A DNA stretch of 64,000 nt from Alistipes sp. (GTDB lineage Bacteria > Bacteroidota > Bacteroidia > Bacteroidales > Rikenellaceae): the NCBI GenBank assembly GCA_017555905.1, contig JAFZFP010000018.1, forward strand, positions 56,738 through 120,737, written 5' to 3'. Positions 1-64,000 of the stretch are shown here, in pieces. The position numbers were made by a program, and so were the translations under genes. The notes below the pieces were generated by a model. The model was not told the DNA's origin and did not search any database. It worked only from the letters and a program-made list of their open reading frames with translations. Position 1 is the stretch's first letter. The number at the start of each line of letters is the position of its first letter.

Positions 1-824
1 GCGTAAAGATTCTAAACCCTCTCTCACAGGACTTGAACGTAATGCGTCAGACATTGATGTTCAATGCTTTGGAGGCAGTGGAACTCAACGTAAACCGTCG
101 TAACGGCAACCTCAAGATGTATGAGGTGGGTAACTGTTACTCTTTCGCCGAGGAGAAGGCTTCGGAGGAGAACGCATTGGCTAAGTATGAGGAGACCTAC
201 CGCATCGGTATCACCGTAACGGGCCTTGCAACTCAGTTGTCGTGGAACTCTAAGGCTGAGCCATCATCGTTCTTCACACTTCGTGCTATGGTCGAGAAGT
301 TGCTCAAGCGTTTCGGCATCGACATCTACGCCTTGCAGTGTGAGGGTCTTGAGTCAGACCTCTATGCTGATGCCATCGTGCTTAAGCAGGGTCCTAAGGA
401 GGTATTGCGTATGGGCGCTGTATCACCTATCGTTCGCAAGAAGTTCGATATCAAGCAGGAGGTTTACTTCGCAGAGATCGACTTCGACCAACTTATCAAG
501 ATGACCAAGAAGTCGAAGGTACAGTTCAAGGAACTCTCTAAGTTCCCAGAGGTTAAGCGCGACCTTGCACTCCTCGTTGATAAGGGTGTCACATTCTCTC
601 AGTTGCGCTCTATAGCATTTGCTACCGAGAAGAAACTCCTCAAGTCTGTATCGTTGTTCGACGTTTATGAGGGCGACAAACTCCCTGAGGGCAAGAAGTC
701 GTACGCCTTGAGTTTCATCCTCGAGGATAAGAACCAGACCCTTACCGACAAGCAGATTGAGCGCACTATGGCAAATATCCAGGCTCAATTGGAGCAGAAG
801 ACTGGTGCAGAGATTCGTAAGTAG
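1..824 (+). CDS. pheT: Phenylalanine--tRNA ligase beta subunit, C-terminal part (5' truncated by window edge)
   Basis: The open frame runs in from the left edge (first full codon at base 3), so only about the last 273 residues are here; the internal ATG at 33 is not the start. Near the beginning it reads NPLSQDLNVMRQTLM, typical of the B6/B7 catalytic-like core of PheT. The end (KFPEVKRDLALLVDKGVTF onward) is the C-terminal ferredoxin-fold anticodon-binding domain that contacts tRNA-Phe. With PheS the subunit forms the alpha2-beta2 enzyme that charges tRNA-Phe in the cytoplasm. A strong hairpin terminator follows 19 bases after the stop. Identification is secure; only the length of the missing part is unknown. 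Confidence 0.95.
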   Translation, partial: VKILNPLSQDLNVMRQTLMFNALEAVELNVNRRNGNLKMYEVGNCYSFAEEKASEENALAKYEETYRIGITVTGLATQLSWNSKAEPSSFFTLRAMVEKLLKRFGIDIYALQCEGLESDLYADAIVLKQGPKEVLRMGAVSPIVRKKFDIKQEVYFAEIDFDQLIKMTKKSKVQFKELSKFPEVKRDLALLVDKGVTFSQLRSIAFATEKKLLKSVSLFDVYEGDKLPEGKKSYALSFILEDKNQTLTDKQIERTMANIQAQLEQKTGAEIRK

Positions 825-843
825 TCTTGCACTATAACCAAAC

Positions 844-880
844 AAAGTAAAGGGGTGTCATTACGACACCCCTTTACTTT
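844..880. terminator. Bidirectional intrinsic terminator between pheT and the phosphate transporter
   Basis: A perfect 16-bp stem (844-859 with 865-880) around a 5-base loop, with A-rich and T-rich arms. It lies between two convergent genes and can serve both. Confidence 0.9.
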
Positions 881-937
881 ACATATCAATCAGCCGTAAT
901 CCACGCCCCCAAAGATAAGGGGGCAAAGATAGGACTA

Positions 938-3145
938 TTAATGTACGAAATGCTCCAAAGACTTCATAATATTTCGTGAGTGAAGCACCATAGTCTTTGT
1001 CTCAGTCAAGATGTTGAAGAACAACATATTAGCCGACGATGAACCACCCGTATCACGCAAACGACGCAACTGATTCTGCATAACCTCGTCGATAAGGTCG
1101 AACATCTCATCGCGCATATTAAGAATCTTATCCATAGTGTCGAAACTACGTGTGCGAAGCATATTATTAATCTCTCCAAAGATCTCCTCCACACGGTCGT
1201 TGATGCGCTTAAGGTCGTAAACCTGCTCCTTGGTAAGACCAGTGTGGTTGTTATCTACGTGCTTATAGCAAGGGCGCGTGATATGCAACAACGCCTTACT
1301 TGTCTCAGAGATATAGTCCACAACCTGAACGTAGTAGTGTCCCGTATTCACGTCGCTATCCTCGAGGTTGCGCAACAATGGCAACAACTCATACTTCTGC
1401 TGGCGTGTAGAGTGATAGAACTCCTCGGCCTCCTTGACCATATCGCGAAGCACCTTGCGGTTCTCCTTGAACACAGCGACAATCGTGCGGTCATAGATCA
1501 TTGTCACCTTCTCCATAGAAGAGCATACGTGTTCGGTATAGGTGATAAGTGCCTCCTCAGGGCTCTGCTTAAGAGCATCGCCAATCTTAGCAACGGCAGA
1601 CTCCTCAACCTTATTCTCTTGCTTTTTTGAGATATTACTCTTGATGATAAGGCCCACGCAAACCAAAGTAACACAGATAATAGCAATAGTACCGCCATAG
1701 ACCAAGATAAGTGTTACGGCAAGGGCAATAACGAAACCACCCACGGCTGTAACAAACCAGCCCATAATAACGGTAGTAACACCCGTAATACGATAAACGG
1801 CACTCTCTCTACCCCACGCTCTATCGGCCAATGACGAACCCATAGAGACCATAAAGACTACGTATGTGGTAGATAGTGGCAACTTAAGTTGTGTACCTAT
1901 AGAAATAAGTATGGCAGCCGCAGTAAGGTTTACCGTAGCACGAATAAGGTCGTAATTGACATCTCCGCGCTCATCCTCTGGAAGTGGCTCGAAGCGGCTG
2001 TCGATAGCCTCTATAACAGACTTTGGTGTTAGTCGTGTAATGAAGTCGTTGAACATACGCACTGCACGCACGATGCCACGAGACATCACAGTTGCCTCGC
2101 TGTTGGTTGGTGCCTCCTCGCTCTGCGACGACAACTTACGCTCGGTCTCAATCACTCGCATAGCCTTCTTTGAGGTAAAGAGCGTGATGACCATAACCAG
2201 ACCCGCAGCACACATAATCCAGAAGTTAGCCTGTGTAGGCTGGCTGAGAGCCTCCATCGAAGTTGGCTCAACACCCGAATTATGGGCAATCATATATGAG
2301 TCGTAACCCGCATAAGGCACACCGATAAAGTTCACAAGGTCGTTACCAGCAAATGCCAAGGCCAACGAGAAGGTACCTGCAAGAATTGATACTCGCAATA
2401 TATTTACGTTGAAACGCTGCAAGAGCCACAAAACTACCGAACAAACTACCCAAAGGATAAGCAACGACAGACTGGTATTGTTATTCACAAAGTCGAGCAA
2501 GACCACAGGGATAAAGCCCGAATTCTTAAGACCCTTGAACACCGTGAAATATACGATACCCGCCAAGGTAATGCCACACCATAAGGCTCCGAAACGGTTG
2601 AAAACCTTATGGTAGCGGAACGAAAAGATAAGACGTGAGATATACATCAGAAGGTGACCCGTAACAAAGGCCAAGAGGACCGAAAGCAGGATACCCGACA
2701 CGATACCTAAGGCGTTACCCGAGTTGATATACTCTCCAAGACTCGCCGTAGTGGTATCGCTCCATATATTATATAGTGCCAAGGCCATAGCCGAGCCGAG
2801 CAAACCGAATACCAACGAAACGGTAGTAGACGTAGGCAGACCCAACGAGTTATAGATATCCAAGAGAATGATATTCGAGAGCATCATACCGAGGAAGAGT
2901 ATCATAATCTCCTGGTAAGAGAACATCGCAGGATAGAAGACTCCACTACGCGCAACATCCATCATACCACTCGACGTCATAACTCCGACCATAACACCAA
3001 CTCCTGCCACAGTAAGAATCACATTCTTCTTGGCCACCTTAGAGCCAAACGCCGAATTAAGGAAATTAACTGCATCGTTGGAGACTCCGACGATGATACC
3101 CATAACTGCGAGAATTGCAAGGGTAATAACGATAAATAAATCCAT
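938..3145 (-). CDS. Pit-family inorganic phosphate transporter with PhoU-like C-terminal domain
   Basis: A 735-residue membrane protein. Two homologous halves carry the family's inverted signature: GVSNDAVNF near residue 20 and AGNDLVNF near residue 265. The second membrane half holds LPLSTTYVVFMVSMGSSLA. From about residue 540 to the end the protein is hydrophilic and alpha-helical and resembles a PhoU-type domain; classical Pit proteins (about 500 residues) lack it. The family moves phosphate with a cation (H+ or Na+) across the inner membrane. The gene is divergent from a response regulator/histidine kinase pair, and the region between holds an 11-bp tandem repeat laid out like a Pho box next to its promoter, so phosphate-responsive control is likely (inference). 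A sulfate or other anion substrate is less likely. Confidence 0.88.
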   Translation of the reverse strand: MDLFIVITLAILAVMGIIVGVSNDAVNFLNSAFGSKVAKKNVILTVAGVGVMVGVMTSSGMMDVARSGVFYPAMFSYQEIMILFLGMMLSNIILLDIYNSLGLPTSTTVSLVFGLLGSAMALALYNIWSDTTTASLGEYINSGNALGIVSGILLSVLLAFVTGHLLMYISRLIFSFRYHKVFNRFGALWCGITLAGIVYFTVFKGLKNSGFIPVVLLDFVNNNTSLSLLILWVVCSVVLWLLQRFNVNILRVSILAGTFSLALAFAGNDLVNFIGVPYAGYDSYMIAHNSGVEPTSMEALSQPTQANFWIMCAAGLVMVITLFTSKKAMRVIETERKLSSQSEEAPTNSEATVMSRGIVRAVRMFNDFITRLTPKSVIEAIDSRFEPLPEDERGDVNYDLIRATVNLTAAAILISIGTQLKLPLSTTYVVFMVSMGSSLADRAWGRESAVYRITGVTTVIMGWFVTAVGGFVIALAVTLILVYGGTIAIICVTLVCVGLIIKSNISKKQENKVEESAVAKIGDALKQSPEEALITYTEHVCSSMEKVTMIYDRTIVAVFKENRKVLRDMVKEAEEFYHSTRQQKYELLPLLRNLEDSDVNTGHYYVQVVDYISETSKALLHITRPCYKHVDNNHTGLTKEQVYDLKRINDRVEEIFGEINNMLRTRSFDTMDKILNMRDEMFDLIDEVMQNQLRRLRDTGGSSSANMLFFNILTETKTMVLHSRNIMKSLEHFVH

Positions 3146-3161
3146 AGGTTTCTAAATATTT

Positions 3162-3202
3162 TTACAAAATTAAGAAATAATTGTTACAAAATTGTTACAA
3201 AA
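3162..3202 (-). promoter_or_regulatory. Promoter of the phosphate transporter with Pho-box-like 11-bp repeats
   Basis: Bases 3181-3191 and 3192-3202 are identical 11-mers (TTGTTACAAAA). The core TTACAAAA occurs again at 3162, exactly two 11-bp periods away. A -7 element TAATTTTG lies on the minus strand at 3172-3165, 8 bp from the repeats, and no TTTG box sits at the usual -33 spacing. Tandem 11-bp repeats in place of the -35 region are the arrangement bound by PhoB/OmpR-type regulators. Confidence 0.55.
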
Positions 3203-5130: not shown

Positions 5131-5224
5131 GCCTACGGAGCGCTGAAAGCAGTCCAAATCGTATAGTTGTGGTTGTGATTTTGTGAAATTCGAGAGGATT
5201 TTGCGAAAATCACAACCACTTCTT

Positions 5225-5255
5225 TTTGATTATTCCCAATAAATTCCTATCTTTG
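5225..5255 (+). promoter_or_regulatory. Consensus -33/-7 promoter of secA
   Basis: TTTG at 5225-5228 and TATCTTTG at 5248-5255 with an exact 19-bp spacer: a textbook Bacteroidota housekeeping promoter. The leader to the ATG is about 65 bases. Confidence 0.85.
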
Positions 5256-5329
5256 CGCGTTATGTATTACTACATAAGTATCACTTTGGGAGTACGTAAC
5301 ACTTAAGAGGTAAAAACAAAAACGCGAAT

Positions 5330-8300
5330 ATGGATATTTTATCAAAGATTATCAAACTCTTTTTCGGCACTAAAGCCGATAACGACTACAAGGAGATTGC
5401 TCCTTACGTAGAGAAGATTAAGGCGGTATATCCAACAATTATGAAACTTAGCAACGACGAACTTCGTGCTCGTTCGGCTGAGTTGAGTAAGATGATTACA
5501 GACTTTATCGCCAAGGATGAGGAGGAGATTGTAAAGAACAATAACCGTTTGGAGGATCCCAACACGTCGATCAAAGAGAAGGAGCAGATCTCTAAGGCTA
5601 TCGATGTTTTGGAGAAGCAGATTGATGCTAAAATCGAAGATAAGCTCAAGGAGATCCTTCCTGAGGCCTTCGCCATTATGAAGGATACAGCTCGTCGTTT
5701 CGCTGAGAACGAGACCGTGGTGGTTACTGCTAATGACTTCGACCGCAACCTCGCAGCTGAGCGTCAGGACTTGGTAACTATCGAGGACGACAAGGCTATC
5801 TACTCAAGCCAGTGGACCGCTGGTGGTAACACCATCAAGTGGGATATGGTACACTACGACTCACAGCTCTTTGGTGGTGTTGTTCTTCACCTCGGCCGTA
5901 TCGCCGAGATGGCAACGGGTGAGGGTAAGACCCTTGTGGCTACACTCCCTGTTTTCCTAAATGCTTTGGCACATAAGGGCGTACACGTGGTTACTGTGAA
6001 TGACTACCTCGCTCGTCGTGATGCCGAGTGGATGGGCCCTATGTATCAGTTCCACGGACTCTCGGTGGCTTGCATCGACAACACCCGTCCTAACTCTCCT
6101 GAGCGTCGCAAGGCCTACAACGCAGATATCACCTTCGGTACTAACAACGAGTTCGGCTTCGACTACTTGCGTGATAATATGGCCTCTGCACCTAAGGACC
6201 TCGTTCAGCGTAAGCACCACTTCGCAATTGTCGATGAGGTCGATTCAGTACTCATCGACGATGCTCGTACACCACTTATCATCTCTGGTCCTGTACCACG
6301 TGGTGGCGACCAACTCTTTGCTGAGTATCAGCCTGCAGCACGCTATATCTATGACCTTCAGAGCAAGATGTCAGCATCGGATGTTGCCGAGGCTAAGCGT
6401 CTCTATGCTGAGGGTAACCACGATGAGGCAGGTAAACTCCTCTTGCGTGCGCATAAGGCAATGCCAAAATATAAGGCACTCATCAAGTTCCTCTCTGAGC
6501 CAGGTGTTAAGGTATTGATGCAGAAGATTGAGAATATCTATATGCAGGATAACGAGCGCCGTATGCCTGAGATTACCGACGAGAACTTCGTTGTTCACGA
6601 CGAGAAGATGAACACCTTGATTCTTACGGATAAGGGTCACGAGGTGGCATCTAAGCGTTTCAACGAGGAGGGCTTCTTCGTACTTCCTGATATTGGTGCT
6701 GGTATTGCAGAGATCGAGCACGACACATCGCTTGACGCTATGGAGCGTACACAGAAGAAGGATGAACTTATCTCTGAGTACGCTATCAAGGCAGAGCGTG
6801 TACACACTATGAACCAACTTCTCAAGGCATACTTTATGTTCGAGAAGGAGGTTGAGTACGTGATTATCGACGACAAGGTGAAGATCGTAGACGAGCAGAC
6901 GGGCCGTATTATGGAGGGTCGTCGCTACTCAGACGGTTTGCACCAGGCTATCGAGGCTAAGGAGGGTGTAAAGGTCGAGGATGCTACACAGACCTTCGCT
7001 ACCGTAACCTTGCAGAACTACTTCCGTATGTACCACAAGTTGGCAGGTATGACCGGTACCGCAGAGACCGAGTCTACGGAGTTCTGGAACATCTATAAAT
7101 TGGATGTTGTGGTTATCCCAACCAATAAGCCTGTAATTCGTGACGACCGTGAGGACTTGGTTTACAAGACCGAGCGCGAGAAGTATAATGCCGTTATCGC
7201 AGAGATTGCCAACCTCGTAAATGAGGGTCGCCCAGTATTGGTGGGTACTACCTCTGTCGAGATTTCGGAGTTGTTGAGCCGTATGCTTAAGATGCGAGGT
7301 ATCAAGCACAATGTGTTGAATGCTAAGCAACACCAGTTGGAGGCACAGATTGTTGCCGAGGCAGGTAAGCGTGGTCAGGTAACCATTGCAACCAATATGG
7401 CGGGTCGTGGTACCGATATCAAACTTACGCCAGAGGTTAAGGAGCTTGGTGGTTTGGCTATCATTGGCACCGAGCGCCACGAGAGCCGTCGTGTAGATAG
7501 ACAGTTGCGTGGTCGTTCAGGTCGTCAGGGCGACCCTGGTTCTTCACAGTTCTTCGTATCATTGGAGGATAAACTTATGCGTCTTTTCGGCTCTGACCGT
7601 CTCGCCTCTATGATGGACAAGATGGGTCACCAGGAGGGTGAGGTTATCCAGGCAGGTATGATGACCAAGGCTATCGACCGCGCTCAGAAGAAGGTCGAGG
7701 AGAACCACTATGGCGTGCGTAAGCGCTTGTTGGACTACGATGATGTTATCAACTCACAGCGTGAGGTTATCTATACCCGTCGTCGTCACGCCCTCTTCGG
7801 AGATCGTATCGACATCGACCTCAACAACCTTCGCCACGACTTTGCACTTAAGTTCGTGGAGAAGAACGAGGGGTGCCCATTCGAGGACTTCAAGTTGGAG
7901 TTGTTGTACGAGGTAGCGTTGGAGACTACGCTTAGCGAGGAGCAGTACAACAAGATGAAGCCAAAGGATCTTATCGAGGCTATCGTGAGGGACTTGACAG
8001 AGGCCTACGAGCGCAAGATGGCATTCTTTGCCGACTTCTTCGAGCCTCGCTTGGCACCTATCTACGCTAAGTTCGAGAACAATATGTCTATAAATATGGG
8101 CTTCCCATTCACAGATGGTCGCCTCACATATAGCGTACCTGTTGAGTTGCAGAAGTGTAAGGATACCAAGAGTGCCGAGATCTACCGTACATTCGCAAAG
8201 ATCGCACTCTTCACCACGATCGACGAGTCTTGGCGAGTACACCTCCGTGAGATGGATGACCTCCGTCAGAGCGTACAGAATGCTACCTACGAGCAGAAGG

Positions 8301-8629
8301 ATCCATTGCTCATCTATAAGTTGGAGGCCTTCCAACTCTTCTCTAAGATGCTCGAGGAGATCAACCGCACGGTACTCCTCTCGCTCAACAAGGTTTATGT
8401 AAACGAGCGCACAGCCGAGAATCGTGGTGTGGAGCAGGCACGTGAGCAGCGTAGCAAGGTAGATGTCAATAAGTTGCAGGCATTGCGCACTCAGGCTGCC
8501 GCAAATGCTGGTCAGGGCGATAAGGGCAAAGCATCTCCTATCCGCGTGGATAAGAGCGTTGGCCGTAACGACCCTTGTCCTTGTGGTTCGGGCAAGAAGT
8601 ATAAGCATTGTCACGGTAAACTCGGTTAG
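5330..8629 (+). CDS. secA: Protein translocase ATPase SecA
   Basis: 1,099 residues, the usual long Bacteroidota form. It is the motor that pushes preproteins through SecYEG. Walker A is at about residue 194 (MATGEGKTLV), the DEAD-like Walker B follows in AIVDEVDSVLIDDARTPLI, and the second motor domain carries TIATNMAGRGTDIKL and RQLRGRSGRQGDPG. The extra residues relative to E. coli lie partly in an N-terminal helical stretch (about 65-110) and in the helical wing and scaffold. The C-terminal zinc motif CPCGSGKKYKHC, which binds SecB or lipid, is complete. A dCMP deaminase gene follows almost directly. SecDF, the partner in translocation, is encoded at 21.3-24.2 kb. Confidence 0.98.
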   Translation: MDILSKIIKLFFGTKADNDYKEIAPYVEKIKAVYPTIMKLSNDELRARSAELSKMITDFIAKDEEEIVKNNNRLEDPNTSIKEKEQISKAIDVLEKQIDAKIEDKLKEILPEAFAIMKDTARRFAENETVVVTANDFDRNLAAERQDLVTIEDDKAIYSSQWTAGGNTIKWDMVHYDSQLFGGVVLHLGRIAEMATGEGKTLVATLPVFLNALAHKGVHVVTVNDYLARRDAEWMGPMYQFHGLSVACIDNTRPNSPERRKAYNADITFGTNNEFGFDYLRDNMASAPKDLVQRKHHFAIVDEVDSVLIDDARTPLIISGPVPRGGDQLFAEYQPAARYIYDLQSKMSASDVAEAKRLYAEGNHDEAGKLLLRAHKAMPKYKALIKFLSEPGVKVLMQKIENIYMQDNERRMPEITDENFVVHDEKMNTLILTDKGHEVASKRFNEEGFFVLPDIGAGIAEIEHDTSLDAMERTQKKDELISEYAIKAERVHTMNQLLKAYFMFEKEVEYVIIDDKVKIVDEQTGRIMEGRRYSDGLHQAIEAKEGVKVEDATQTFATVTLQNYFRMYHKLAGMTGTAETESTEFWNIYKLDVVVIPTNKPVIRDDREDLVYKTEREKYNAVIAEIANLVNEGRPVLVGTTSVEISELLSRMLKMRGIKHNVLNAKQHQLEAQIVAEAGKRGQVTIATNMAGRGTDIKLTPEVKELGGLAIIGTERHESRRVDRQLRGRSGRQGDPGSSQFFVSLEDKLMRLFGSDRLASMMDKMGHQEGEVIQAGMMTKAIDRAQKKVEENHYGVRKRLLDYDDVINSQREVIYTRRRHALFGDRIDIDLNNLRHDFALKFVEKNEGCPFEDFKLELLYEVALETTLSEEQYNKMKPKDLIEAIVRDLTEAYERKMAFFADFFEPRLAPIYAKFENNMSINMGFPFTDGRLTYSVPVELQKCKDTKSAEIYRTFAKIALFTTIDESWRVHLREMDDLRQSVQNATYEQKDPLLIYKLEAFQLFSKMLEEINRTVLLSLNKVYVNERTAENRGVEQAREQRSKVDVNKLQALRTQAAANAGQGDKGKASPIRVDKSVGRNDPCPCGSGKKYKHCHGKLG

Positions 8630-8634
8630 TGGTT

Positions 8635-9066
8635 ATGGGATACAAGGAGCAGAAACAGCGTCAGTTCGACTTAAGATATTTGCAGATGGCACGTGTTTGG
8701 GCCGAGAACTCATACTGCGTGCGACGCAAGGTGGGTGCATTGCTTGTCAAGGATAAGATGATTATCTCGGACGGCTATAATGGCACACCTGCGGGCTTTG
8801 AGAATGTGTGCGAGGACGATATGGGCAAGACTAAACCATACGTACTCCACGCCGAGGCCAACGCCATCACCAAGGTTGCTAAGAGTGCAAACAACTGCGA
8901 CGGTTCGACCCTCTATGTCACCGCTTCGCCCTGCATCGAGTGCGCCAAGTTGATTATCCAGGCTGGTATCCGTCGCGTGGTCTATGCCGACCCTTACCGC
9001 AATGACGATGGCATCGAACTACTTAAGAAGGTGGGCATCGAGTGCGTACAAATCCCAGAGGTATAA
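8635..9066 (+). CDS. dCMP deaminase family protein (ComEB-like)
   Basis: 143 residues from the ATG at 8635; a GTG at 8629 overlapping the secA stop would add two residues. The cytidine/deoxycytidylate deaminase fold is clear: the zinc ligand and proton shuttle lie in LHAEANAI, and the other two ligands in TASPCIECAKLI. The conserved NGTPAGFENVCED loop is typical of dCMP deaminases, which make dUMP for thymidylate synthesis. It lies five bases behind secA and is probably cotranscribed with it, ending at the terminator at 9088. A ComEB label would be by homology only; nothing here suggests competence. Confidence 0.9.
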   Translation: MGYKEQKQRQFDLRYLQMARVWAENSYCVRRKVGALLVKDKMIISDGYNGTPAGFENVCEDDMGKTKPYVLHAEANAITKVAKSANNCDGSTLYVTASPCIECAKLIIQAGIRRVVYADPYRNDDGIELLKKVGIECVQIPEV

Positions 9067-9087
9067 CCTCGTAATATTTAAACCATT

Positions 9088-9124
9088 AAGGCTGTTCAGC
9101 AATTGTGTTGAACAGCCTTTTTTA
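9088..9124 (+). terminator. Intrinsic terminator of the secA operon
   Basis: An 11-bp perfect stem (9088-9098 with 9109-9119) followed by a run of six T. Confidence 0.9.
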
Positions 9125-9178
9125 TTAATGACAATCAAACTATACCAACGTAAATCACATCTAAAGTCCACTTAACAA

Positions 9179-9211
9179 ATAAGGTTGCCCGAGTTATTCG
9201 AGCAACCTTAT
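9179..9211 (-). terminator. Probable terminator of the nucleotidyltransferase gene
   Basis: An 8-10 bp stem, AAGGTTGC with GCAACCTT plus an inner CGA/TCG, located about 20 bases past the minus-strand stop. The T-tract is weak. Confidence 0.6.
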
Positions 9212-9232
9212 ATACATTACCAAGCCGTTGTA

Positions 9233-10141
9233 CTACTCCCACAAGTTGCGTGGGTAGATGCCTCGCTCAATAAGTTCTTCAATCTTAGCCATAAGTTGTG
9301 GCTTATCCTCCTTATAGGTTACACCAAACCAATCAGACGTAGTCTTAAGCACTCGCATAGTGGCTGTACCATCGTTGATAACCTTGTTCACCATAAGAGG
9401 GATGAAGAACTCCGACTTTAGGTTCTCGATATTGGCCTTAAGGAACTCCTTGAAGAAGTTCTTTGAATAGACGAAATAGTCAGGGGTGAAGCCAAAGAGG
9501 TTCATCGACACAGGGGTATCCTCAGCCAAAGGCTCATCAGCACCGCCATCGTGGAAAAGGATAGTGCCATTAACACGCTCAATCTGTGTACGCTCGACCA
9601 TACCCTGAAGGTTGCCATCCGAATCTACGGTGCAGACGCCACGTGACACCGTACCATTCTCCGATAAAGTCTTAGAGACCTGATAGCCCACCATACAATA
9701 CTTATCCTTGCTACCATCCAAACCAGAGAGGTAGTCGGCAATAGTGGCGTATGCCTCACGACCATAGAAGTCGTCAGCATTGATAACGGCAAAAGGCTCA
9801 TTGATAACCTCCGCTGCCATCATCACAGCGTGGTTAGTACCCCAAGGTTTTACTCTTCCCTCAGGCAATGTGAAGCCCTCTGGGAGGTAGTCCAACTCCT
9901 GAAAAACATACTCAACAGCAATCTTACCGCCAAAACGCTCGGCATTAAAGACCTCTTTGAAGTCCGCCTCGAAACTGTGGCGAATAACAAAAACTACCTT
10001 GCCAAAGCCTGCTCGTATAGCATCATACACCGAGTAGTCGATGATAGCCTCACCATTAGGGCCTACACCATCCATCTGCTTGAGTGAGCCATAACGTGAG
10101 CCCATACCAGCAGCCAAAACTAAAAGTGTTGGTTTTACCAT
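9233..10141 (-). CDS. Sugar-1-phosphate nucleotidyltransferase family protein
   Basis: 302 residues. The N-terminal motif LVLAAGMGSRYGSLKQ is the nucleotide-binding loop of NDP-sugar pyrophosphorylases (a variant of GxGTRxxPxTK). PWGTNHAVMMA and FAVINADDFYG provide the base contact and metal-binding Asp. The family joins NTP and a sugar-1-phosphate (or phosphocholine-like substrate) to feed cell-surface polysaccharide synthesis. The substrate cannot be read from the sequence, and the usual glucose-1-phosphate thymidylyltransferase motif is not exact. It is a single gene with its own consensus promoter and no sugar-pathway neighbours. Confidence 0.85.
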   Translation of the reverse strand: MVKPTLLVLAAGMGSRYGSLKQMDGVGPNGEAIIDYSVYDAIRAGFGKVVFVIRHSFEADFKEVFNAERFGGKIAVEYVFQELDYLPEGFTLPEGRVKPWGTNHAVMMAAEVINEPFAVINADDFYGREAYATIADYLSGLDGSKDKYCMVGYQVSKTLSENGTVSRGVCTVDSDGNLQGMVERTQIERVNGTILFHDGGADEPLAEDTPVSMNLFGFTPDYFVYSKNFFKEFLKANIENLKSEFFIPLMVNKVINDGTATMRVLKTTSDWFGVTYKEDKPQLMAKIEELIERGIYPRNLWE

Positions 10142-10178
10142 AATATTAGATTCAAGTTTATCGAATTATTTATTAGCA

Positions 10179-10209
10179 CAAAGGTAAAAAAGTTATTATA
10201 AAATACAAA
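10179..10209 (-). promoter_or_regulatory. Consensus promoter of the nucleotidyltransferase gene
   Basis: Minus strand: TTTG at 10209-10206 and TACCTTTG at 10186-10179, with an exact 19-bp spacer. It is divergent from the -7-like element of the next operon. Confidence 0.8.
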
Positions 10210-10227
10210 GTATCTGTTCATTTTCGT

Positions 10228-10235
10228 TATCTTTG
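10228..10235 (+). promoter_or_regulatory. -7 element (TATCTTTG) before the LytM-dxr-rseP-radA operon
   Basis: A perfect TATCTTTG lies 26 bp before the chosen ATG at 10262. No clear TTTG stands at the -33 spacing, so the promoter may be weak or activated. Confidence 0.55.
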
Positions 10236-10261
10236 CAAGATAAATATAAAAGTTGAAACCT

Positions 10262-11116
10262 ATGATACGAGAAATATGGGAGCGTTTGACAGAAAAACAA
10301 CTGCTGTCGATGCGCAACCGAGCAAACGATGAAATAAATTGGAAGATAAACATCTCGCCATTAGCCCTTTGGGGTAGCATCGTCACGTTGCTAATTATAA
10401 TATTTGCGGTGTTGCTTGTCCTTATGGCCTACACCTCAATTCTCGATATCCTGCCAGGATACCGCACTAAGGCCGAGAGACTCAACGAGGAACTCACCGA
10501 AAACATTATGCGCCTAAACGACATCGAGCGCAATATGGAGGATATCAGAGCATATAACGAGGCCGTGGCTACGATTATGGGTGGAAGTACCCCTACGCTC
10601 CACTCTACAGTACTAACGGATACCATTCGCTACGACAAGTCGCGAATACTCCCTACACGTGCCGACTCTCTCCTAAGAGACCTCCTCGAAAGCAACACAA
10701 GCGAATACTCTTTATCAAATACCAAGCCACTGCGTTCGGAGGCCGCTATGTTTAGCGCACCTATGCGAGGCACCATAACACGCAACTTCGATGCACCTGA
10801 GTCGAGTTTCGACATCGCAATTATGCCGATGGATATGAACTTCTCGGTGATGGCCATCGAGAATGGTAGTGTAATTGCCGTCGAGAGCCAGAGCGAAGGT
10901 CTTAGCAGCATCACCATTCAGCACAATGGAGGTTATATATCTGTTTACAAGAACCTCGCTGAGAGCCTCGTACGCAAGGGGCAGACCGTGCAGAGTGGCT
11001 CGGTGATTGGCCGTATCGGTGAGAACAATGGCCAAGAGGAGACCATCGCAGAACTCGGCTTTGAGTTGTGGCGCGATGGTACAGCACAGGATCCCGAGCG
11101 TTACATTCTATTTTAA
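10262..11116 (+). CDS. Membrane-anchored LytM/M23-domain protein with lost zinc ligands
   Basis: About 284 residues from the ATG at 10262; a TTG three codons earlier was rejected. A cytoplasmic N-terminus is followed by one membrane helix (about 40-62), a periplasmic coiled-coil-like stretch, and a C-terminal LytM fold from about residue 165 to the end. The fold is recognisable, but all expected zinc ligands of M23 peptidases are replaced. The first His (normally HxGID) is Ser before FDIA. The HxH-type pair is absent from ISVYKNL, where active enzymes have YxHL. The final HFE motif is GFE in ELGFELW. The protein is therefore probably not a peptidase but a regulator or scaffold, like EnvC or NlpD in E. 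coli. It sits 12 bases before dxr and is cotranscribed. Confidence 0.85.
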   Translation: MIREIWERLTEKQLLSMRNRANDEINWKINISPLALWGSIVTLLIIIFAVLLVLMAYTSILDILPGYRTKAERLNEELTENIMRLNDIERNMEDIRAYNEAVATIMGGSTPTLHSTVLTDTIRYDKSRILPTRADSLLRDLLESNTSEYSLSNTKPLRSEAAMFSAPMRGTITRNFDAPESSFDIAIMPMDMNFSVMAIENGSVIAVESQSEGLSSITIQHNGGYISVYKNLAESLVRKGQTVQSGSVIGRIGENNGQEETIAELGFELWRDGTAQDPERYILF

Positions 11117-11128
11117 ATTGTCGTCGCT

Positions 11129-12286
11129 ATGAGCAAGGAGAAGATAAGCATATTAGGTTCTACGGGCTCCATAGGTGTCCAGACCCTCGATATCGTACGT
11201 CGCCACCCCGAGCGTTTCCAGGTGACATCCCTCGTGGCACATAGTCGCTGGCAGGAGTTGGCTGAGCAGGCTCGTAGTTTCAACGTGGAGAGCGTAGTGA
11301 TTGGCGACGAGCGCTACTATACCCCACTCAAAGAGGCGCTCAAAGATACAAAAATTGAGGTAATGTCTGGAAGTGAGGCTATCAACCACGTAGCGCGCAG
11401 TTATCGTAGCGACACCGTAGTAAATGCCTTGGTCGGTTATGCTGGCCTCCACCCCACACTCCTTGCCATAGAGAGTGGCAAGCGCATCGCCTTGGCAAAC
11501 AAGGAGACGTTGGTCGTGGGTGGCGATATCGTAATGGGCGCTGCAAAGCACAAGGGGGTAGAGATTCTACCTATAGACTCAGAGCATTCTGCAATTATGC
11601 AGTGTCTCGAGGGTGAAAAGCGTCGCAACATACGCAACCTTATAATCACCTGTAGCGGAGGAGCTCTGAGAAATATCCCACGCGAGGAGTTGGCAAGCGT
11701 AACACCCGAGATAGCACTCAAGCACCCACAGTGGTCGATGGGAGCAAAGATAACTATCGACTCTGCGACACTGGTAAACAAGGGTTTCGAGGTTATCGAG
11801 GCTCGTTGGCTCTTCGACATAGAGCCCGAGAGAATCAAGGTGGTAATCCATCCACAGTCGATAGTTCACTCGATGGTGGAGTTTACCGACGGAGCGGTTA
11901 AGGCTCAACTCGGCACCGCAGATATGCACACACCAATCAGTTACGCCCTATTATACCCCGAGCGTAGCGAAGAGGCTATGGAGGAGTTCTCGATACTAAA
12001 CTACCCTACACTCTCGTTTATGGATGTGGACAGGGAGAAGTACCCAGCCTTAGATATCGCATACGACTGCCTCGGCAAGGGTGGCACGGCAGCCTGCACG
12101 ATGAATGGTGCTAACGAAGTGGCCGTGGCGGCATTCTTGGCGCACAAGTGCGGATATCTCGATATCGTCGAGACAATAAGGTATGCACTTCGAAACGCTA
12201 CGTTTGTGGCAAAACCAACAATCGACGACTACGACGAGGCCAACAAGGAGGCTCGCGAGTTGGCACGCAAATATCTCAAACTATAG
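11129..12286 (+). CDS. dxr: 1-deoxy-D-xylulose 5-phosphate reductoisomerase
   Basis: 385 residues, normal length. It converts DXP to MEP with NADPH, the second step of non-mevalonate isoprenoid synthesis. The N-terminal Rossmann motif is GSTGSIGVQTL. The metal- and substrate-binding residues lie in LPIDSEHSAIMQCL and in TLVNKGFEVIEA, and the flexible active-site loop WSMGAKITIDSATL is intact. It lies between the degenerate LytM gene and rseP with gaps of 12 and 22 bases. The dxr-rseP order is common in bacteria. Confidence 0.98.
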   Translation: MSKEKISILGSTGSIGVQTLDIVRRHPERFQVTSLVAHSRWQELAEQARSFNVESVVIGDERYYTPLKEALKDTKIEVMSGSEAINHVARSYRSDTVVNALVGYAGLHPTLLAIESGKRIALANKETLVVGGDIVMGAAKHKGVEILPIDSEHSAIMQCLEGEKRRNIRNLIITCSGGALRNIPREELASVTPEIALKHPQWSMGAKITIDSATLVNKGFEVIEARWLFDIEPERIKVVIHPQSIVHSMVEFTDGAVKAQLGTADMHTPISYALLYPERSEEAMEEFSILNYPTLSFMDVDREKYPALDIAYDCLGKGGTAACTMNGANEVAVAAFLAHKCGYLDIVETIRYALRNATFVAKPTIDDYDEANKEARELARKYLKL

Positions 12287-12308
12287 TAATAAATAAAGGT
12301 AACAAAAT

Positions 12309-13763
12309 ATGACAGGTATCTTAATTCAGGCACTACAATTCTTCGCATCACTCTCGATGCTCGTCCTTATCCACGAGTTTGGACACTTCATCACAGCACG
12401 TATGTTTGGTATTCGTGTCGATAAGTTCTATATCTTCTTCAACCCTTGGTTTTCGCTCTTTAAGCGCAAGGTAGGAGATACGGAGTATGGCATCGGCTGG
12501 ATTCCTCTTGGTGGCTACGTAGGTCTTTACGACAATCGTGAGGTACTCATCGACCGCGAGAGCGAGATTACAAAACAGCGTGAGGAGGCTGAGGAGAGAC
12601 TTAAGAGACTCAAGAAGGGTGGCCAGAGCGAGGAGATTGCCGAGGTTGAGGCCGAGATAAAGGGCTATGACGAGGCTATCAAGGAGGTGCAGGAGCAGTT
12701 CCGCACGTTGGAGCCTACGAAGGATGAGTTGCGTGGCAAACCCGCTTGGCAGCGACTTATTGTTATGGTGGCTGGTGTGGTTATGAACGTACTCTTTGCC
12801 ATTGCCATCTATTCGGGTATGATGTTTACCTGGGGCGAGACCTACTACCACAACGACGATATGGTCAATGGCTATCTATTTAACGAAGAGGCTGAGGCTC
12901 TCGGCTTCCAGGATGGCGACAGAATCCTAAGCATTGATGGAGAGAGCATTGGCAACATAGGCGAGATTTCAGAGCGACTACTTATAGTGGACCACGACCT
13001 CGAGGCTAAGGTGGTACGTGGTCAGGAGGAGGTAACCTTCACACTCCCTCTCAACGACCTCGTTGCGATGCGTGAGCGTGGCGGTTTCCGCAACTTCATC
13101 GGCGAGTTCGTGCCATTCGTCATTAAGAGTGTTGAGCGTGAGAGCGCCCAGCAAGCAGGACTCATAAAAGGTGATAAGGTTGTGGCTATCAACGATGTAG
13201 CAGTAACAGACTTCATCAGCGCAACACCTTTACTCAACGAGGCTAAGGGTAGCGAAGTAGCCCTCACCGTAGAGCGTAACCAAGAGTTAGTGACACTCAC
13301 CCTCCCTGTAGATGAGGCGGGAAAAATCGGTGTTATGGTGGCTACGGTTGCTCCACGACAGATAGAGTACGGCTTCTTTGAGTCTATTCCTCAGGGATTT
13401 AAGCATACGGGCGAGGAGATTAGTTCATACTGGAATCAGTTGGTTATGATGTTCAAGCCAGAGACCAAACTATACAAGGAGATGGGTGGTTTCATCTCTA
13501 TCGGTAGCGTATTCCCAAGCGCGTGGAACTGGTATAGTTTCTGGAATATCACTGCCCTACTCTCTGTGATTCTTGCTGTGATGAACCTCTTGCCTATTCC
13601 AGTATTGGATGGTGGTCACGTATTATTCACCCTTTGGGAGTTAATCACGGGTCACAAGCCAAGTGAGAAGTTTATGACCGTGGCACAGAACATAGGTTTC
13701 TACCTACTCATTGCGCTTCTCATCTATGCCAACGGAAGCGACATACTACGACTCTTTAACTAA
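12309..13763 (+). CDS. rseP: Site-2 intramembrane metalloprotease RseP
   Basis: 484 residues. The first membrane helix carries the zinc-binding HEFGH (about residues 23-27) and the C-terminal helix has PVLDGGH, the third ligand. Two PDZ-like domains lie between. A charged helical insert (about residues 80-130, EEAEERLKRLKK) precedes the second membrane segment and is longer than in E. coli RseP. The family cleaves anti-sigma factors and leftover signal peptides inside the membrane. Its gene is in one operon with dxr and radA. Confidence 0.95.
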   Translation: MTGILIQALQFFASLSMLVLIHEFGHFITARMFGIRVDKFYIFFNPWFSLFKRKVGDTEYGIGWIPLGGYVGLYDNREVLIDRESEITKQREEAEERLKRLKKGGQSEEIAEVEAEIKGYDEAIKEVQEQFRTLEPTKDELRGKPAWQRLIVMVAGVVMNVLFAIAIYSGMMFTWGETYYHNDDMVNGYLFNEEAEALGFQDGDRILSIDGESIGNIGEISERLLIVDHDLEAKVVRGQEEVTFTLPLNDLVAMRERGGFRNFIGEFVPFVIKSVERESAQQAGLIKGDKVVAINDVAVTDFISATPLLNEAKGSEVALTVERNQELVTLTLPVDEAGKIGVMVATVAPRQIEYGFFESIPQGFKHTGEEISSYWNQLVMMFKPETKLYKEMGGFISIGSVFPSAWNWYSFWNITALLSVILAVMNLLPIPVLDGGHVLFTLWELITGHKPSEKFMTVAQNIGFYLLIALLIYANGSDILRLFN

Positions 13764-13778
13764 TCACGTTGTACTGCG

Positions 13779-15146: not shown

Positions 15147-15186
15147 CGCGATAGGTAACTCATAATATAGAGCGGTATAGATTTTG

Positions 15187-15217
15187 AGACTCCCCGAAGA
15201 GAACGTGGGAGTCTTTT
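15187..15217 (+). terminator. Intrinsic terminator after radA
   Basis: An 8-bp stem (AGACTCCC with GGGAGTCT), then TTTT. The thioredoxin gene begins 20 bases on, so some read-through may supply it. Confidence 0.75.
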
Positions 15218-15236
15218 AATTTAATACTACAACTAT

Positions 15237-15560: not shown

Positions 15561-15561
15561 A

Positions 15562-25715: not shown

Positions 25716-27506
25716 TTAATCCATCTTCAAGACGGCCAAGAAGGCAGACTGTGGCACCTGCACAGAGCCGATCTGGCGCATACGCTTCTTACCAGCCTTC
25801 TGCTTCTCCAACAACTTACGCTTACGCGAGATATCACCACCATAACACTTCGCAGTAACATCCTTACGAACGGCCTTGACAGTCTCACGAGCGATAATCT
25901 TGGCGCCAATAGCGGCCTGAATAGCAATATCGAACTGCTGGCGTGGGATAAGTTCCTTAAGTTTTTCGCACATCTTTCTACCGAAGTCGTAGGCGTGGTC
26001 TGCATAGATAAGTGACGACAACGCATCGACAGCCTCGCCATTAAGCAAGATATCGAGTTTTGCGAGTTTACTCAACTGGTAGCCCGTGCGGTGGTAGTCG
26101 AACGAAGCGTAACCCTTAGAGATACTCTTCAACTTATCGTAGAAGTCGAAGACAATCTCCGACAGCGGCATCTCGAAATTAACCTCCACACGATCCTGTG
26201 TGATAAAGGTCTGATTCTTCATCACACCGCGCTTGTCGATACACAACTTAAGCACGTTACCCAAGAAATCGGACTTGGTGATAATCTGCGCAAGGATATA
26301 TGGCTCCTCAATCTTTGCTACCTTAGTAATCTCAGGGAGGCCAGATGGGTTATGAACCTCAAGTTCCTCGCCCATAGTGGTAGTGATATGGTACGACACG
26401 TTAGGCACGGTGGTAATAACATCCATATCGAACTCACGATAGAGACGCTCCTGGATAATCTCCATATGCAACAGGCCAAGGAAACCACAACGGAAACCGA
26501 AGCCAAGAGCCAATGAACTCTCAGGCTCGAAGGTCAATGAGGCATCGTTGAGTTTCAACTTTTCGAGCGAAGCACGCAAATCCTCATACTGGTCAGCCTC
26601 AACGGGATAGACACCCGCAAAGACCATAGGCTTAACATCCTCAAAACCTGCGATAGCCTCCAAAGCGGGGTTAGCCACCGAGGTAATAGTATCACCCACC
26701 TTAACATCCGTAGAGTTCTTGATACCTGAGCAGATATATCCTACATCGCCCGCCTTAATCTCATCGCGAGCAACCATCTTCAACTTAAGCACACCAATCT
26801 CGTCGGCATCATACTCGCTACCCGTATTGAAGAACTTAACGTGTTCGCCCTTGTGGATTGTGCCGTTGAAGACACGGAAATAGGCGATGACACCTCTAAA
26901 CGGATTGAATACCGAATCGAAGATAAGGGCCTGCAACGGAGCATTCTCGTCACCCTCTGGGGCTGGGACACGCTCGACAATAGCCTCCAAGACCTCCTCA
27001 ACACCCTGTCCAGTCTTACCCGAAGCCAACAAGATATCCTCATCCTTACAACCAATAAGGTCGATAATCTGATCCTTGACCTCGTCAATCATTGCCGACT
27101 CACAGTCGATCTTATTCAATACGGGGATAATCTCAAGATCCTGTCCGAGAGCCAGGTAGAGATTAGAGATAGTCTGTGCCTGGATACCCTGAGTAGCATC
27201 CACTACAAGCAATGCGCCCTCGCACGAAGCGATAGCACGTGACACCTCATACGAGAAATCGACGTGTCCTGGGGTATCAATAAGGTTGAGAGTGTACATC
27301 TGACCATCGCGAGCCTTATACTCCATCTGAATTGCGTGGCTCTTGATGGTGATACCCTTCTCGCGCTCAAGGTCCATATCATCGAGTACCTGCGCCTGCA
27401 TCTCTCGCTGGTTGAGCGTATTAGTCTTCTCCAATAGACGATCGGCAAGCGTACTCTTACCGTGGTCGATATGTGCAATAATACAAAAGTTGCGTATGTT
27501 TTTCAT
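25716..27506 (-). CDS. lepA: Elongation factor 4 (LepA)
   Basis: 596 residues, the normal length. A translational GTPase with G1 [16 protein letters not shown], the switch region [11 protein letters not shown]3 [12 protein letters not shown] and G4 NKID. The C-terminal domain specific to LepA ends [17 protein letters not shown]. LepA acts on stalled ribosomes and in 30S assembly. A promoter lies upstream at 27569-27539; downstream is the fucosidase gene. Confidence 0.98.
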
Positions 27507-54495: not shown

Positions 54496-56028
54496 ATGAA
54501 TCGTGAAGTAAGAGTTCGTTTTGCGCCAAGCCCTACAGGCCCACTCCATATCGGAGGTGTGCGCACAGCACTATATAACTACCTTTTTGCACGCCGTCAC
54601 GGTGGTAAGATGATTCTCCGCATCGAGGATACCGATTCTCAGCGTTTCGTTCCAGGTGCCGAGGAGTATATCATCGAGTCGCTCAAGTGGTGTGGTATCG
54701 AGATTGACGAGGGTGTTGGCGTTGGTGGTCCTCACGCTCCTTACCGCCAGAGTGAGCGTCGTGAGATATATCTCAAGTATGCTAAGCAGCTTATCGATGC
54801 TGGTTGGGCATACTACGCCTTCGACACCCCTGAGGAGTTGGATAAGTTGCGTAGCGAGGCCGAGGCTACGGGCAAAACCTTTGCCTACAACTTCAAGGTG
54901 CGCGAGCAGTTGCCTACGTCGCTCTCACTCTCTAAGGAGGAGGTCGAGGCACGCATCGCTCGTGGCGACCAGTGGGTAGTACGTTTCAAGATGCCTGAGA
55001 ACGAGGTTGTGAAGATGGACGACTTGATTCGTGGTCACGTGGAGGTAAACACATCGACCCTCGATGATAAGGTACTCTACAAGTCGGCAGATGCTCTTCC
55101 TACCTACCACCTCGCAAATATCGTCGATGACCACCTTATGGAGGTGTCGCACGTAATTCGTGGCGAGGAGTGGTTGCCTTCGTTGCCTCTCCACTACTTG
55201 CTCTACCGTGCCTTTGGTTGGACAGACACTCAGCCTGAGTTCGCACATTTGCCACTCTTGCTCAAGCCTACAGGAAGTGGTAAGCTCTCGAAGCGTGATG
55301 GCGACAAGATGGGATTCCCCGTATTCCCACTCTTCTGGACATCACCTACGGGTGAGACATCGCGTGGCTATCGTGAGGATGGCTACCTAGCTGAGGCATT
55401 TATCAATATGTTGTCGTTGCTCGGCTGGAACCCTGGCACCGAGCAGGAGATCTTCTCTATGGAGGAACTTATCAATACCTTCTCGTTGGACCGCGTATCG
55501 AAGGCTGGTGCACGTTTCCAGCCCGACAAGGCTAAGTGGTTCAATGCGCAGTATATGCACACCCTAAGCGACGAGCAGTTGGCTCCTTATATGCAACCAA
55601 TCCTCAAAGCTCACGGCATCGAGGTCGCTGACGAGGTTGCTGGTAAGGCTGCGGGCATTATGAAGGAGCGTATGACCCTAACGACAGATATGTGGGATTT
55701 GACTTCGTTCTTCTTCGTTGCTCCTACCGAGTATGAGGAGAAGTTGGTAAAGAAGCAGTGGAAGGGTGACAACCCTGCAATGCTTAAGGCTCTCCGAGGC
55801 GTCTTGGAGGGTATCGAGGACTTCTCAAAGGAGAATACCGAGGTTGTAGTACGTGCTTGGCTTGAGCGCGAGGGCTACGGTCTTGGTCAGGTGATGAACA
55901 CCTTGCGTTTGGCGTTGGTGGGTGCTGGTAAGGGCCCAGGTATGTTCGACGTTACGGAGTTCATCGGCAAGGCAGAGTGTCTTGCTCGTATCGACAACCT
56001 TATTAATAATGTAACACCTTTGGAGTAA
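54496..56028 (+). CDS. gltX: Glutamate--tRNA ligase
   Basis: 510 residues, class I. HIGH motif in [16 protein letters not shown] (about 9-24), and [14 protein letters not shown] near residue 260. It charges tRNA-Glu and, because no glutaminyl-tRNA synthetase is seen here, may also be used for tRNA-Gln in an amidotransferase route (inference). Its stop TAA overlaps the ATG of galM by one base (TAATG). Confidence 0.97.
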
Positions 56029-57083
56029 TGGAGATTCTACAGCATATATGGGGCTCGACACCTGAGGGTGAGGGCATCATACTCTACACTATGCGCAATA
56101 GCCGTGGCTCGGAGGTACAACTCTGCAACATCGGTGCTTCGATCGTGAGTGTGAAGTTTGCCGATCGTCAAGGTAACATTGACGATGTTGCTTTGGGCTA
56201 TAAGGATGCCTTGAGTTATATCGGTGATGGTGCAGCAAGTGGCAAGAGCGTAGGCCGTGTGGCTGGTCGCATCGCACGTGGCTATATGGTTGTTGATGGT
56301 GTGGAGTACCGTTTGGAGGTAAACAATGGTCCTAACCACCTTCACGGTGGCTCTAAGGGCTTTGCTAACCGCTATTGGGAGGGTCGTGTAGAGACCAACC
56401 GCGTGGTATTCTCATACATTGCCGAGGATATGGAGCAGGGCTACCCTGGAGAGTTGGTTGTCGAGGCGGTCTACGACTTCGACGACGAGGACAACCTCGA
56501 AATTACATACCTCGCAAAGAGCAATAAGACCACCGTGGTAAACCTCACCAACCACCTCTACTGGAACCTCCACGGCGAGGGCTCGGACAAGACAATCCTC
56601 GACCATGAGTTGCGTCTCAACTGCTCTCAGGTGTTGGAGATGGATACAGTGCAGATTCCTACGGGCAAACTACTCGATGTGAAGGGCACTGCCCTCGACT
56701 TTACCGAGTGGCGAGAGTTTGGCAAGGAGATCGATTCGGAGTTCAACAACATACGCACCTACAGAGGTTACGACCACTGCTTTGCCGTGGATGGCTGGCA
56801 GAAGAATATCCTCAAGGAGGTAGGCGAGTTGCGTTGTCAGGCTACAGGTCGCAAGGTGACAATCCTTTCGTCTCAACCAGCAGCCGTACTCTATACGGGT
56901 AACTGGTTGGCTGGTGGATGTCCTCTGACCAAGTCGGACAAGTACTACAAGGATTATGCAGGTGTGGCTATTGAGTGTCAGGGATATAGCGATGCTGTAA
57001 ACCACCCACACTTCCCCTCTATAGAACTCAAAGCCGACGAGTTGTACTGCCAAAAGATAGTATTCCGTCTCGGCACATTTTAA
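56028..57083 (+). CDS. galM: Aldose 1-epimerase (mutarotase)
   Basis: 351 residues, no signal peptide, cytoplasmic. The substrate motif NNGPNHLHGG (about 95-104), NLTNHLYWNL with the acid His (about 170-180), and the base Glu in GVAIECQGYSDAVNHP near the end. It interconverts alpha and beta hexoses such as galactose or glucose. The last gene of the trpS operon. It contains the only CATG tetranucleotide I found in the window (56604). Confidence 0.95.
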   Translation: MEILQHIWGSTPEGEGIILYTMRNSRGSEVQLCNIGASIVSVKFADRQGNIDDVALGYKDALSYIGDGAASGKSVGRVAGRIARGYMVVDGVEYRLEVNNGPNHLHGGSKGFANRYWEGRVETNRVVFSYIAEDMEQGYPGELVVEAVYDFDDEDNLEITYLAKSNKTTVVNLTNHLYWNLHGEGSDKTILDHELRLNCSQVLEMDTVQIPTGKLLDVKGTALDFTEWREFGKEIDSEFNNIRTYRGYDHCFAVDGWQKNILKEVGELRCQATGRKVTILSSQPAAVLYTGNWLAGGCPLTKSDKYYKDYAGVAIECQGYSDAVNHPHFPSIELKADELYCQKIVFRLGTF

Positions 57084-63344: not shown

Positions 63345-63375
63345 AAAAAAAGAGAGCATCACTGCTCTCTTTTTT
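63345..63375 (-). terminator. Intrinsic terminator of rplU-rpmA
   Basis: A 13-bp stem (AAAAAAGAGAGCA with TGCTCTCTTTTTT) with a T-run on the minus strand, 22 bases past the rpmA stop. Confidence 0.9.
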
Positions 63376-63396
63376 CTCTGTGCAAGTCGTTATGTC

Positions 63397-63657
63397 TTAC
63401 TCTGCAATAGGTACTACGCTAACGAATGACTTACCAGATGCCTTCTTGCAGAAGCTAACTGTACCGTCAACCAATGCAAAAAGTGTGTGGTCCTTACCCA
63501 TACCCACGTTCTCACCTGGGTTGTGTACTGTGCCTCGCTGACGAACGATAATGTTACCCGCCTTAGCGTACTGACCACCGAAAAGCTTTACACCGAGTCG
63601 CTTGCTCTCTGACTCACGGCCGTTCTTAGAACTACCAACACCTTTTTTGTGTGCCAT
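63397..63657 (-). CDS. rpmA: 50S ribosomal protein L27
   Basis: 86 residues. Starts [18 protein letters not shown] and contains [21 protein letters not shown], the hallmark of L27 (bL27), whose N-terminus reaches the peptidyl transferase centre. No extra N-terminal extension needing cleavage is seen. It follows rplU by 21 bases. Confidence 0.98.
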
Positions 63658-63678
63658 TTCTTACTACGTTTTAAGGGT

Positions 63679-63990
63679 TTAACAATTAATCTCCTCAACG
63701 AGAACCTGCGTCAAGTACTGACGGTGACCGTTGCACTTCTGATAGCCTGTTCTACGCTTCTTCTTGAACACAAGAACCTTATCGTCCTTCAAGTGCTTCA
63801 AGATCTTGCACTTCACTGTAGCGCCTTCTACAACAGGTGCGCCAACCTTAACCTGACCGTCGTTGTCTACAAGCAGGACTTTGTCGAAGCTCAAGGTAGA
63901 GTTTTCCTCTCCCTGGAGACGGTGAACATAGAGCTTACGACCCTTCTCAGCCTTAAACTGCTGACCTGCGATCTCTACTATTACGTACAT
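63679..63990 (-). CDS. rplU: 50S ribosomal protein L21
   Basis: 103 residues, complete, with [20 protein letters not shown] at the start and [19 protein letters not shown] near the end, typical for bL21. It binds 23S rRNA. First gene of the L21-L27 pair; its promoter is beyond the window. Confidence 0.98.
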
Positions 63991-64000
63991 TTAATCTAAA

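Follow-up and report, generated by a model that had tools for sequence, protein, structure and literature searches.

A 64,000-nucleotide stretch of the Alistipes-like genome G000 (hereafter the window; positions 1..64000, unstranded, corresponding to G000:C14:56738-120737) contains the tetranucleotide CATG only once, and this depletion extends over the genome as a whole. We consider it very probable that cells were selected for having fewer sites open to cutting by a Type II restriction system of the NlaIII/IceA kind; elsewhere, the same genome encodes an operon of that kind. The case is built on the depletion and its reach, on the manner in which lost sites have escaped according to codon phase, on intact endonuclease and methyltransferase genes, and on the CATG-poor state of all Rikenellaceae carriers of the endonuclease that were found (7/7).

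Loss of CATG from the window and the genome

A second-order Markov model predicts 213 copies of CATG in the window, and the single copy found (56604-56607, + strand) gives a ratio of 0.005, the lowest among all 256 tetramers; the Karlin ratio, 0.007, likewise ranks last among the 16 palindromes for which it was computed. When synonymous codons were shuffled in 46 genes, 186 ± 11 copies resulted, with a minimum of 155 over 200 runs. CATG is thus under-represented beyond what composition and codon use account for, the mark of site avoidance by a host, and the count and position given by a first-pass annotation of this DNA were exact. That annotation had also proposed that the avoidance shapes codon choice before ATG and keeps His codons before G as CAC, and both proposals hold in the 46-gene set, to which its example gene, secA (5330..8629, +), belongs. 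Wherever a C- or T-ending synonymous codon precedes ATG it ends in T (312/312, with no C), compared with 5314 T and 5393 C elsewhere; of the His codons before G, 97 are CAC and one is CAT. The sole CATG of the window falls in a His-Glu codon pair, CAT-GAG, within an open reading frame at 56028-57083.

Contrary to the reading in the first-pass annotation, CATG is not the only word affected. By the same Markov counts (observed/expected), CTAG (6/158), CCGG (6/83) and AGCT (42/233) are strongly depleted in the window. GATC, which had been named among the common palindromes, is depleted as well (108/315); TCGA, GGCC, GTAC and GCGC do lie near or moderately under expectation (0.76 to 1.14). A separate feature of the window is an imperfect inverted repeat of 35 nt, 74% complementary, upstream of secA at 5157-5231.

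The genome is a metagenome-assembled one of the Rikenellaceae (1.77 Mb, 29 contigs, 87% complete), and the LepA protein encoded in the window is nearest to those of assemblies from Alistipes and the remaining Rikenellaceae, of which many bear ruminant labels; on this ground we assign the genome to the genus Alistipes. Depletion of CATG is genome-wide: WWCATGWW occurs 18 times in the 1.77 Mb, against 388 for the reversed control, and 93 CATGs were counted against 1268 expected in 381 kb outside the window. The latter sample comprises 21 stretches, several of them chosen for methyltransferase genes, and is what remained of 23 after removal of L031 (all N) and L016 (probably misbinned).

Those 93 leftover sites are clustered. 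Twenty-eight fall in one 20 kb stretch of contig C11 (28/74 observed/expected), 25 of these at 5.4-15.5 kb among surface-protein genes of the fimbrillin type. The CATG-rich region of locus L024 (G000:C11, approximately 5300-15900), which encodes an Mfa2 fimbrillin-anchor protein, DUF3575 and TPR/OmpA-type genes, was probably acquired recently. A further 22 of the 93 lie in stretch L220 (G000:C21:131001-151000), which has a guanine-plus-cytosine content of 37%, encodes an HNH protein and two N6_N4 methyltransferases, and stands above the rest of the genome in both CATG (22/69) and CTAG (26/46). Six more are inside or just before the IceA operon described below. In the excluded L016 (G000:C2:1-3245), a 3.2 kb contig carrying rpoB, CATG is normal (9/10 expected); since another rpoB, 70% identical, is present on C16, this contig is probably misbinned. 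CATG density can expose contamination, leftover CATG marking both recent gains of DNA and misbinned contigs such as this one.

How sites disappear was followed in 37 gene alignments of the window with ten CATG-normal relatives, gapped sites being set aside. None of the 170 CATGs of the relatives that align without gaps is kept (0/170), while the control words are kept at 46/148 (GTAC), 69/215 (TGCA), 46/134 (ACGT) and 211/419 (TCGA); these fates are not independent events, because one site may count in several relatives and seven of the ten align only at lepA (25716..27506, −). The escape changes are mostly, though not all, synonymous, and they follow codon phase. Sites in the phase CAT-G became CACG in 25/36 cases; of 123 in the phase C-ATG, 66 became TATG, 14 GATG and 13 AATG; and of 11 in the phase CA-TG, five became CGTG and five CTTG. 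At four-fold codons, transversions make up 14 of 35 changes before ATG, as compared with 40 of 265 before other codons starting with A (p 0.0015). Such escape by codon phase argues for selection against the word itself, and not for decay of C to T.

An IceA-family operon and its distribution

The operon lies on contig C18, outside the window and just downstream of a tRNA-Lys gene (locus L014, all four genes on the − strand). Its endonuclease gene (12021-12701; 226 amino acids) is intact, contains no stop and matches PF05315 (ICEA) over the full length of the family model (positions 1-218 of 218, E 3e-110). It is adjoined by a 262-residue methyltransferase (12705-13493) and by a 381-residue NucS-like protein (10863-12008), whose match to NucS is weak; beyond this is a 334-residue D12 adenine methyltransferase (9855-10859). 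Residues D115, H116, N145, C141, C152, C155, C187 and C190 are invariant in 5/5 aligned endonucleases; the D-H and the N are presumably the conserved HNH nuclease residues, accompanied by pairs of cysteines, all in predicted roles.

Endonuclease and D12 methyltransferase occur together in 7/7 carriers (in G147 only the first 46 residues of the methyltransferase, at a contig end). The two are adjacent in G116, G124, G014, G576 and Alistipes sp. UBA940 and split in G000 by the NucS-like gene, which G000 shares with G147, while the second methyltransferase, of the 262-residue type, is found in 5/7 (G000, G147, G116, G124 and G576). The first-pass annotation had named restriction avoidance of the NlaIII type as a possibility and a CATG-specific nuclease or methyltransferase as something to seek in the genome; candidate genes of both kinds are there. 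From the endonuclease family we infer that the system of G000 is specific for CATG and that the 226-residue protein cuts it, iceA1 being described as a functional isoschizomer of NlaIII in the relevant text of PMC2816704. Placement of the D12 methyltransferase in the hpyIM kind is suggested by the label 'ulcer associated adenine specific' on related genes, and in the account given in PMC4687069 a Campylobacter gene of that name is the ortholog of CATG-specific hpyIM and stands alongside an iceA1/nlaIII homolog. The methyltransferase of G000 is predicted to methylate the A of CATG, as in Helicobacter pylori, where M.HpyAI is an alpha-class m6A methylase of this word (PMC3936762, in the part concerned with it).

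Relatives of the system were also sought more widely. Neither the endonuclease nor the D12 methyltransferase had a useful counterpart among solved structures, none of 46 pattern matches in viral contigs was a relative, and plasmids yielded one distant endonuclease match only, in Priestia. A relative of the D12 methyltransferase (46% identical) is encoded by Agrobacterium phage Atu_ph07 (MF403008.1, 490 kb) at 148352-149326, where it possibly serves protection against such systems. Two proteins with GmrSD_N domains adjoin the IceA operon (L014 4556-8861, +), and this region is possibly a defence island. At L013 6414-10013 (+), a DGQHR/DndB-like protein is encoded in series with a methyltransferase of the Dam family and a short protein whose match is to the C-terminal portion of a restriction-enzyme model; the three may form a restriction system of an uncharacterised type.

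Among 151 congeners, 53 are CATG-poor, meaning fewer than 70 WWCATGWW per Mb, a line drawn after the counts had been seen. PF05315 was detected in 5/151 of these genomes, all five within the 53 (Fisher p 0.005, kinship ignored); in genomes at least 90% complete it was detected in 4/20 poor ones versus 0/42 others (p 0.009, kinship ignored). With G000 included, 6 of 180 genus genomes searched carry the family, the sixth being G576. Among 38 named loci, one genome carries it, that of UBA940, a more distant relative; this set taken alone (1/15 poor versus 0/23, p 0.39) shows nothing. In addition to G000, with 1/213 in the window and 93/1268 in the sample, the carriers have observed/expected CATG counts of 0/259 (G014), 16/296 (G116), 21/275 (G124), 49/250 (G147), 17/317 (G576) and 6/66 (UBA940), so that Rikenellaceae carriers are CATG-poor in 7/7. 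In Bacteroidota at large (395 genomes), PF05315 was found in G000 and, as a partial match, in G330 of another family.

The state of CATG has changed repeatedly within this group. Across the 65 rows of a LepA tree, of which 31 are CATG-poor and 34 normal, 13 state changes are needed, of which seven are forced by well-supported branches. The tree derives from 71 aligned rows, six of which were dropped as duplicate, gapped or too short; LepA had been sought in 30 genomes (18 chosen for being poor and 12 for being normal), of which 25 gave it in full length, and a named locus counted as poor if, over 3-22 kb, its CATG stood at less than 0.3 of expectation, a cut that divides some intermediate cases. 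Because genomes were picked by their CATG state, the proportions in the tree are meaningless, and it is the interleaving of states that is meaningful.

Related species, moreover, each have their own set of emptied palindromes, some emptied wholly (observed/expected). Over 80 kb, G014 has CATG 0/259, GATC 0/311 and AGCT 4/194 (loci L212, L046, L238 and L239), and G116 has GCGC 0/258 (L210, L226, L240 and L241). CGCG is at 6/298 in G124, ACGT at 9/246 in G576, and in G147 ACGT is at 6/148 and GGCC at 10/204.

Explanations for the purge

The mechanism that we favour would run as follows. An HNH-type endonuclease would cut unmethylated CATG in foreign DNA, and the adenine methyltransferase would shield the cell's own sites. 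Whenever methylation lagged or failed, the cell would cut itself, at a fitness cost scaling with the number of sites, and mutations that remove sites, mostly synonymous ones, would be favoured. Self-cutting is thus taken to be the cost that drove the loss. The intact IceA-family endonuclease and the CATG-poor carriers speak for the NlaIII-type restriction avoidance that the first-pass annotation had raised, while the deamination that it offered beside this, and its view of an effect confined to CATG, fall to the codon-phase escapes and to the low CTAG, CCGG, AGCT and GATC.

A number of observations weigh against this explanation. The PF05315 gene was not detected in 48/53 CATG-poor congeners. 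In the 20 most CATG-poor genomes, four of them carriers, a D12 methyltransferase was found in seven, an N6_N4 methyltransferase in six (five above the cut-off) and a cytosine methyltransferase in eight; of the 16 non-carriers among these 20, 11 have neither D12 nor N6_N4 and eight have none of the three families. Carriers are not the most purged genomes, G147 being an example, and the operon of G000 is itself unpurged, with six CATGs versus 10.0 expected (P about 1e-4 at the ratio of the genome sample). The partial match in G330 stands outside the count of seven, which covers Rikenellaceae carriers only, and the association statistics carry the neglect of relatedness and the retrospective threshold noted above. 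The name of the methyltransferase is loose: its weaker phage matches are labelled LlaI or FokI methylase, and PMC4687069, in the same context, gives the label 'ulcer associated' also to a FokI-like methylase assigned GGATG. Finally, 99.7% of 14,782 listed CATG positions in H. pylori are methylated, by the figures that PMC3936762 gives for this word; CATG there is methylated yet common, and a CATG methylase alone therefore does not purge.

The absences in poor genomes may reflect bins lacking the island, methyltransferase families that were not searched, or systems lost recently. Metagenome bins often lose such islands. A single CATG system common to the genomes without PF05315 was considered and rejected, because searches with PF01555, PF02086 and PF00145 in the 20 poorest genomes gave no shared family. 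In the eight genomes that had a cytosine methyltransferase, the best such locus of each was compared with the others; these are 24-52% alike, except for G000 versus G124, which are 81% alike and share a neighbour; no further shared neighbour gene was matched at these eight loci. In G144 and G002 the endonucleases of the systems found are Tsp45I and EcoRV, whose targets, we assume, are not CATG, so that these systems would not be CATG cutters.

The unpurged operon seems younger than the purge and cannot, over the time that it has now been resident, account for all of it. We therefore attribute the loss mostly to earlier copies or to earlier systems of the same specificity. A closely related explanation, to which we give somewhat less than even odds, is that the purge is the scar of CATG systems now lost in most species, and that the operon of G000 is a recent arrival in an emptied chromosome. 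It differs from the favoured explanation mainly in which system acted, and the odds of the two overlap. The scarcity of PF05315 among poor congeners fits it, as does the contrast between the operon of G000 and that of G014, around which there is no CATG in 20 kb; traces of lost systems have also been described (PMC4687349, in its discussion of avoidance). The genes for the endonuclease and the 262-residue methyltransferase are 85-90% identical at the DNA level between G000 and G147 or G116, closer than lepA (79.5-80.9%), which suggests that the operon has moved between these species. No sign of movement comes from G124 and G014, whose operons (74-79% and 68-73%) do not exceed lepA in their similarity to G000, so that this argument is confined to G147 and G116. 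Moreover, the non-carriers G074 (1/221), G132 (1/126) and G144 (1/90), which hold no more than about 1% of their expected CATG, leave little time for CATG to have regrown after a loss. In surroundings of 12-20 kb, a tRNA-Lys gene stands beside the operon in two of six carriers scanned (G000 and G147), a shared position that adds to the suggestion of movement between species, and none was seen in those of G116, G124, G014 and G576. A common insertion site defined by the neighbouring 183-residue gene, a putative methylglyoxal synthase, was rejected; this gene is present in 11/22 genomes, and gene order is not conserved.

It is tempting to speculate that some Alistipes chromosomes have become so empty of CATG that the sequence itself protects them and methylation no longer matters, although we regard this as unlikely. 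If true, such genomes would tolerate CATG nucleases without a guarding methyltransferase, and emptied species would be preferred landing places, with mobile CATG systems hopping among species emptied beforehand. The 11 of 16 poorest non-carriers without D12 or N6_N4 and the unpurged, apparently recently moved operon of G000 would fit; among the seven carriers, no endonuclease stood without a methyltransferase.

About as improbable is that, in a population recombining freely, restriction acted on exchanged DNA, incoming CATG alleles being cut and CATG-free alleles spreading by recombination with no part for self-cutting. This would rely on the same restriction genes, in an operon that seems mobile between species, but the foreign-looking islands on C21 and C11 keep roughly a third of their expected CATG, and CATG-bearing DNA therefore does enter. 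We give slightly less weight still to an undescribed CATG-reading nuclease, or another system that is not restriction-modification, having purged the word across the genus. The non-carriers without a match to the methyltransferase families could be read in this way; however, all the Rikenellaceae carriers of a known CATG endonuclease family are CATG-poor, and incomplete bins and unsearched families explain the absences at least equally well.

Mutational loss, by deamination of a methylated C to give TATG or CATA, is very improbable and is ruled out as the cause by the codon-phase fates. TATG is indeed the commonest single-step product (66/136), but it arises where the C is a third codon base, and CATA was seen only twice; CAT-G sites escape by T to C and CA-TG sites by A to G or T (10/11), neither of which is a C-to-T change, and the enrichment of transversions before ATG is equally foreign to deamination. 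The CATG methylase of H. pylori, furthermore, modifies A and not C (PMC3936762, as above). An artefact from a CATG-cutting enzyme used in preparing the library or in assembly, for which nothing was found in favour, is scarcely credible, given that relatives align with substitutions and not gaps at the 170 sites, that 64 kb are unbroken, and that the same assembly keeps 22 and 28 sites per 20 kb elsewhere.

Comparison with known systems

The depletion is real, strong and genome-wide, and it is most likely driven by restriction. It belongs to a known phenomenon and involves a known endonuclease family, in a genus where the effect is exceptionally extreme, informative and quick to change. No report of CATG loss in Alistipes was found in the open-licence literature, among the matches listed. 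Well over 100 species of a single genus span the range from normal CATG to its near-absence, with differing sets of palindromes, so that the rate of chromosome remodelling, the rate at which sites return and the host preference of a mobile system become measurable. In practical terms, these organisms would probably be largely missed by laboratory methods that depend on CATG, such as NlaIII tags and NlaIII Hi-C.

CTAG, like CATG here, is a rare palindrome, but the two differ in distribution. Nearly every Rikenellaceae locus examined is poor in CTAG (the exceptions being L062, 25/58, and L103, 48/63), whereas CATG is low only in the 53 of 151 congeners. CTAG is low in many other bacteria too.

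As in NlaIII and IceA1 (HpyI), a PF05315 endonuclease is here paired with a D12 adenine methyltransferase, with CATG as the expected target. The Alistipes systems differ from these in the extra methyltransferase of the 262-residue type in five of the seven carriers, and in the NucS-like gene of G000 and G147. H. pylori, moreover, keeps CATG common and methylated (PMC3936762, in the part cited), whereas G000 has been emptied of it.

Avoidance of the palindromic sites of orthodox Type II systems, also after a system has been lost, is established (Rusinov et al. 2015, PMC4687349, in the sections bearing on it). Avoidance was called there at a ratio of at most 0.78, compared with the Karlin ratio of 0.007 found here, and our observations differ further from that account, as far as those sections go, in that several palindromes are affected at once and in that related species differ in their state. 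What stands out in Alistipes, then, is how complete the loss is, how many words it involves, how it changes from one related species to another, and that the operon seemingly arrived later than the purge.

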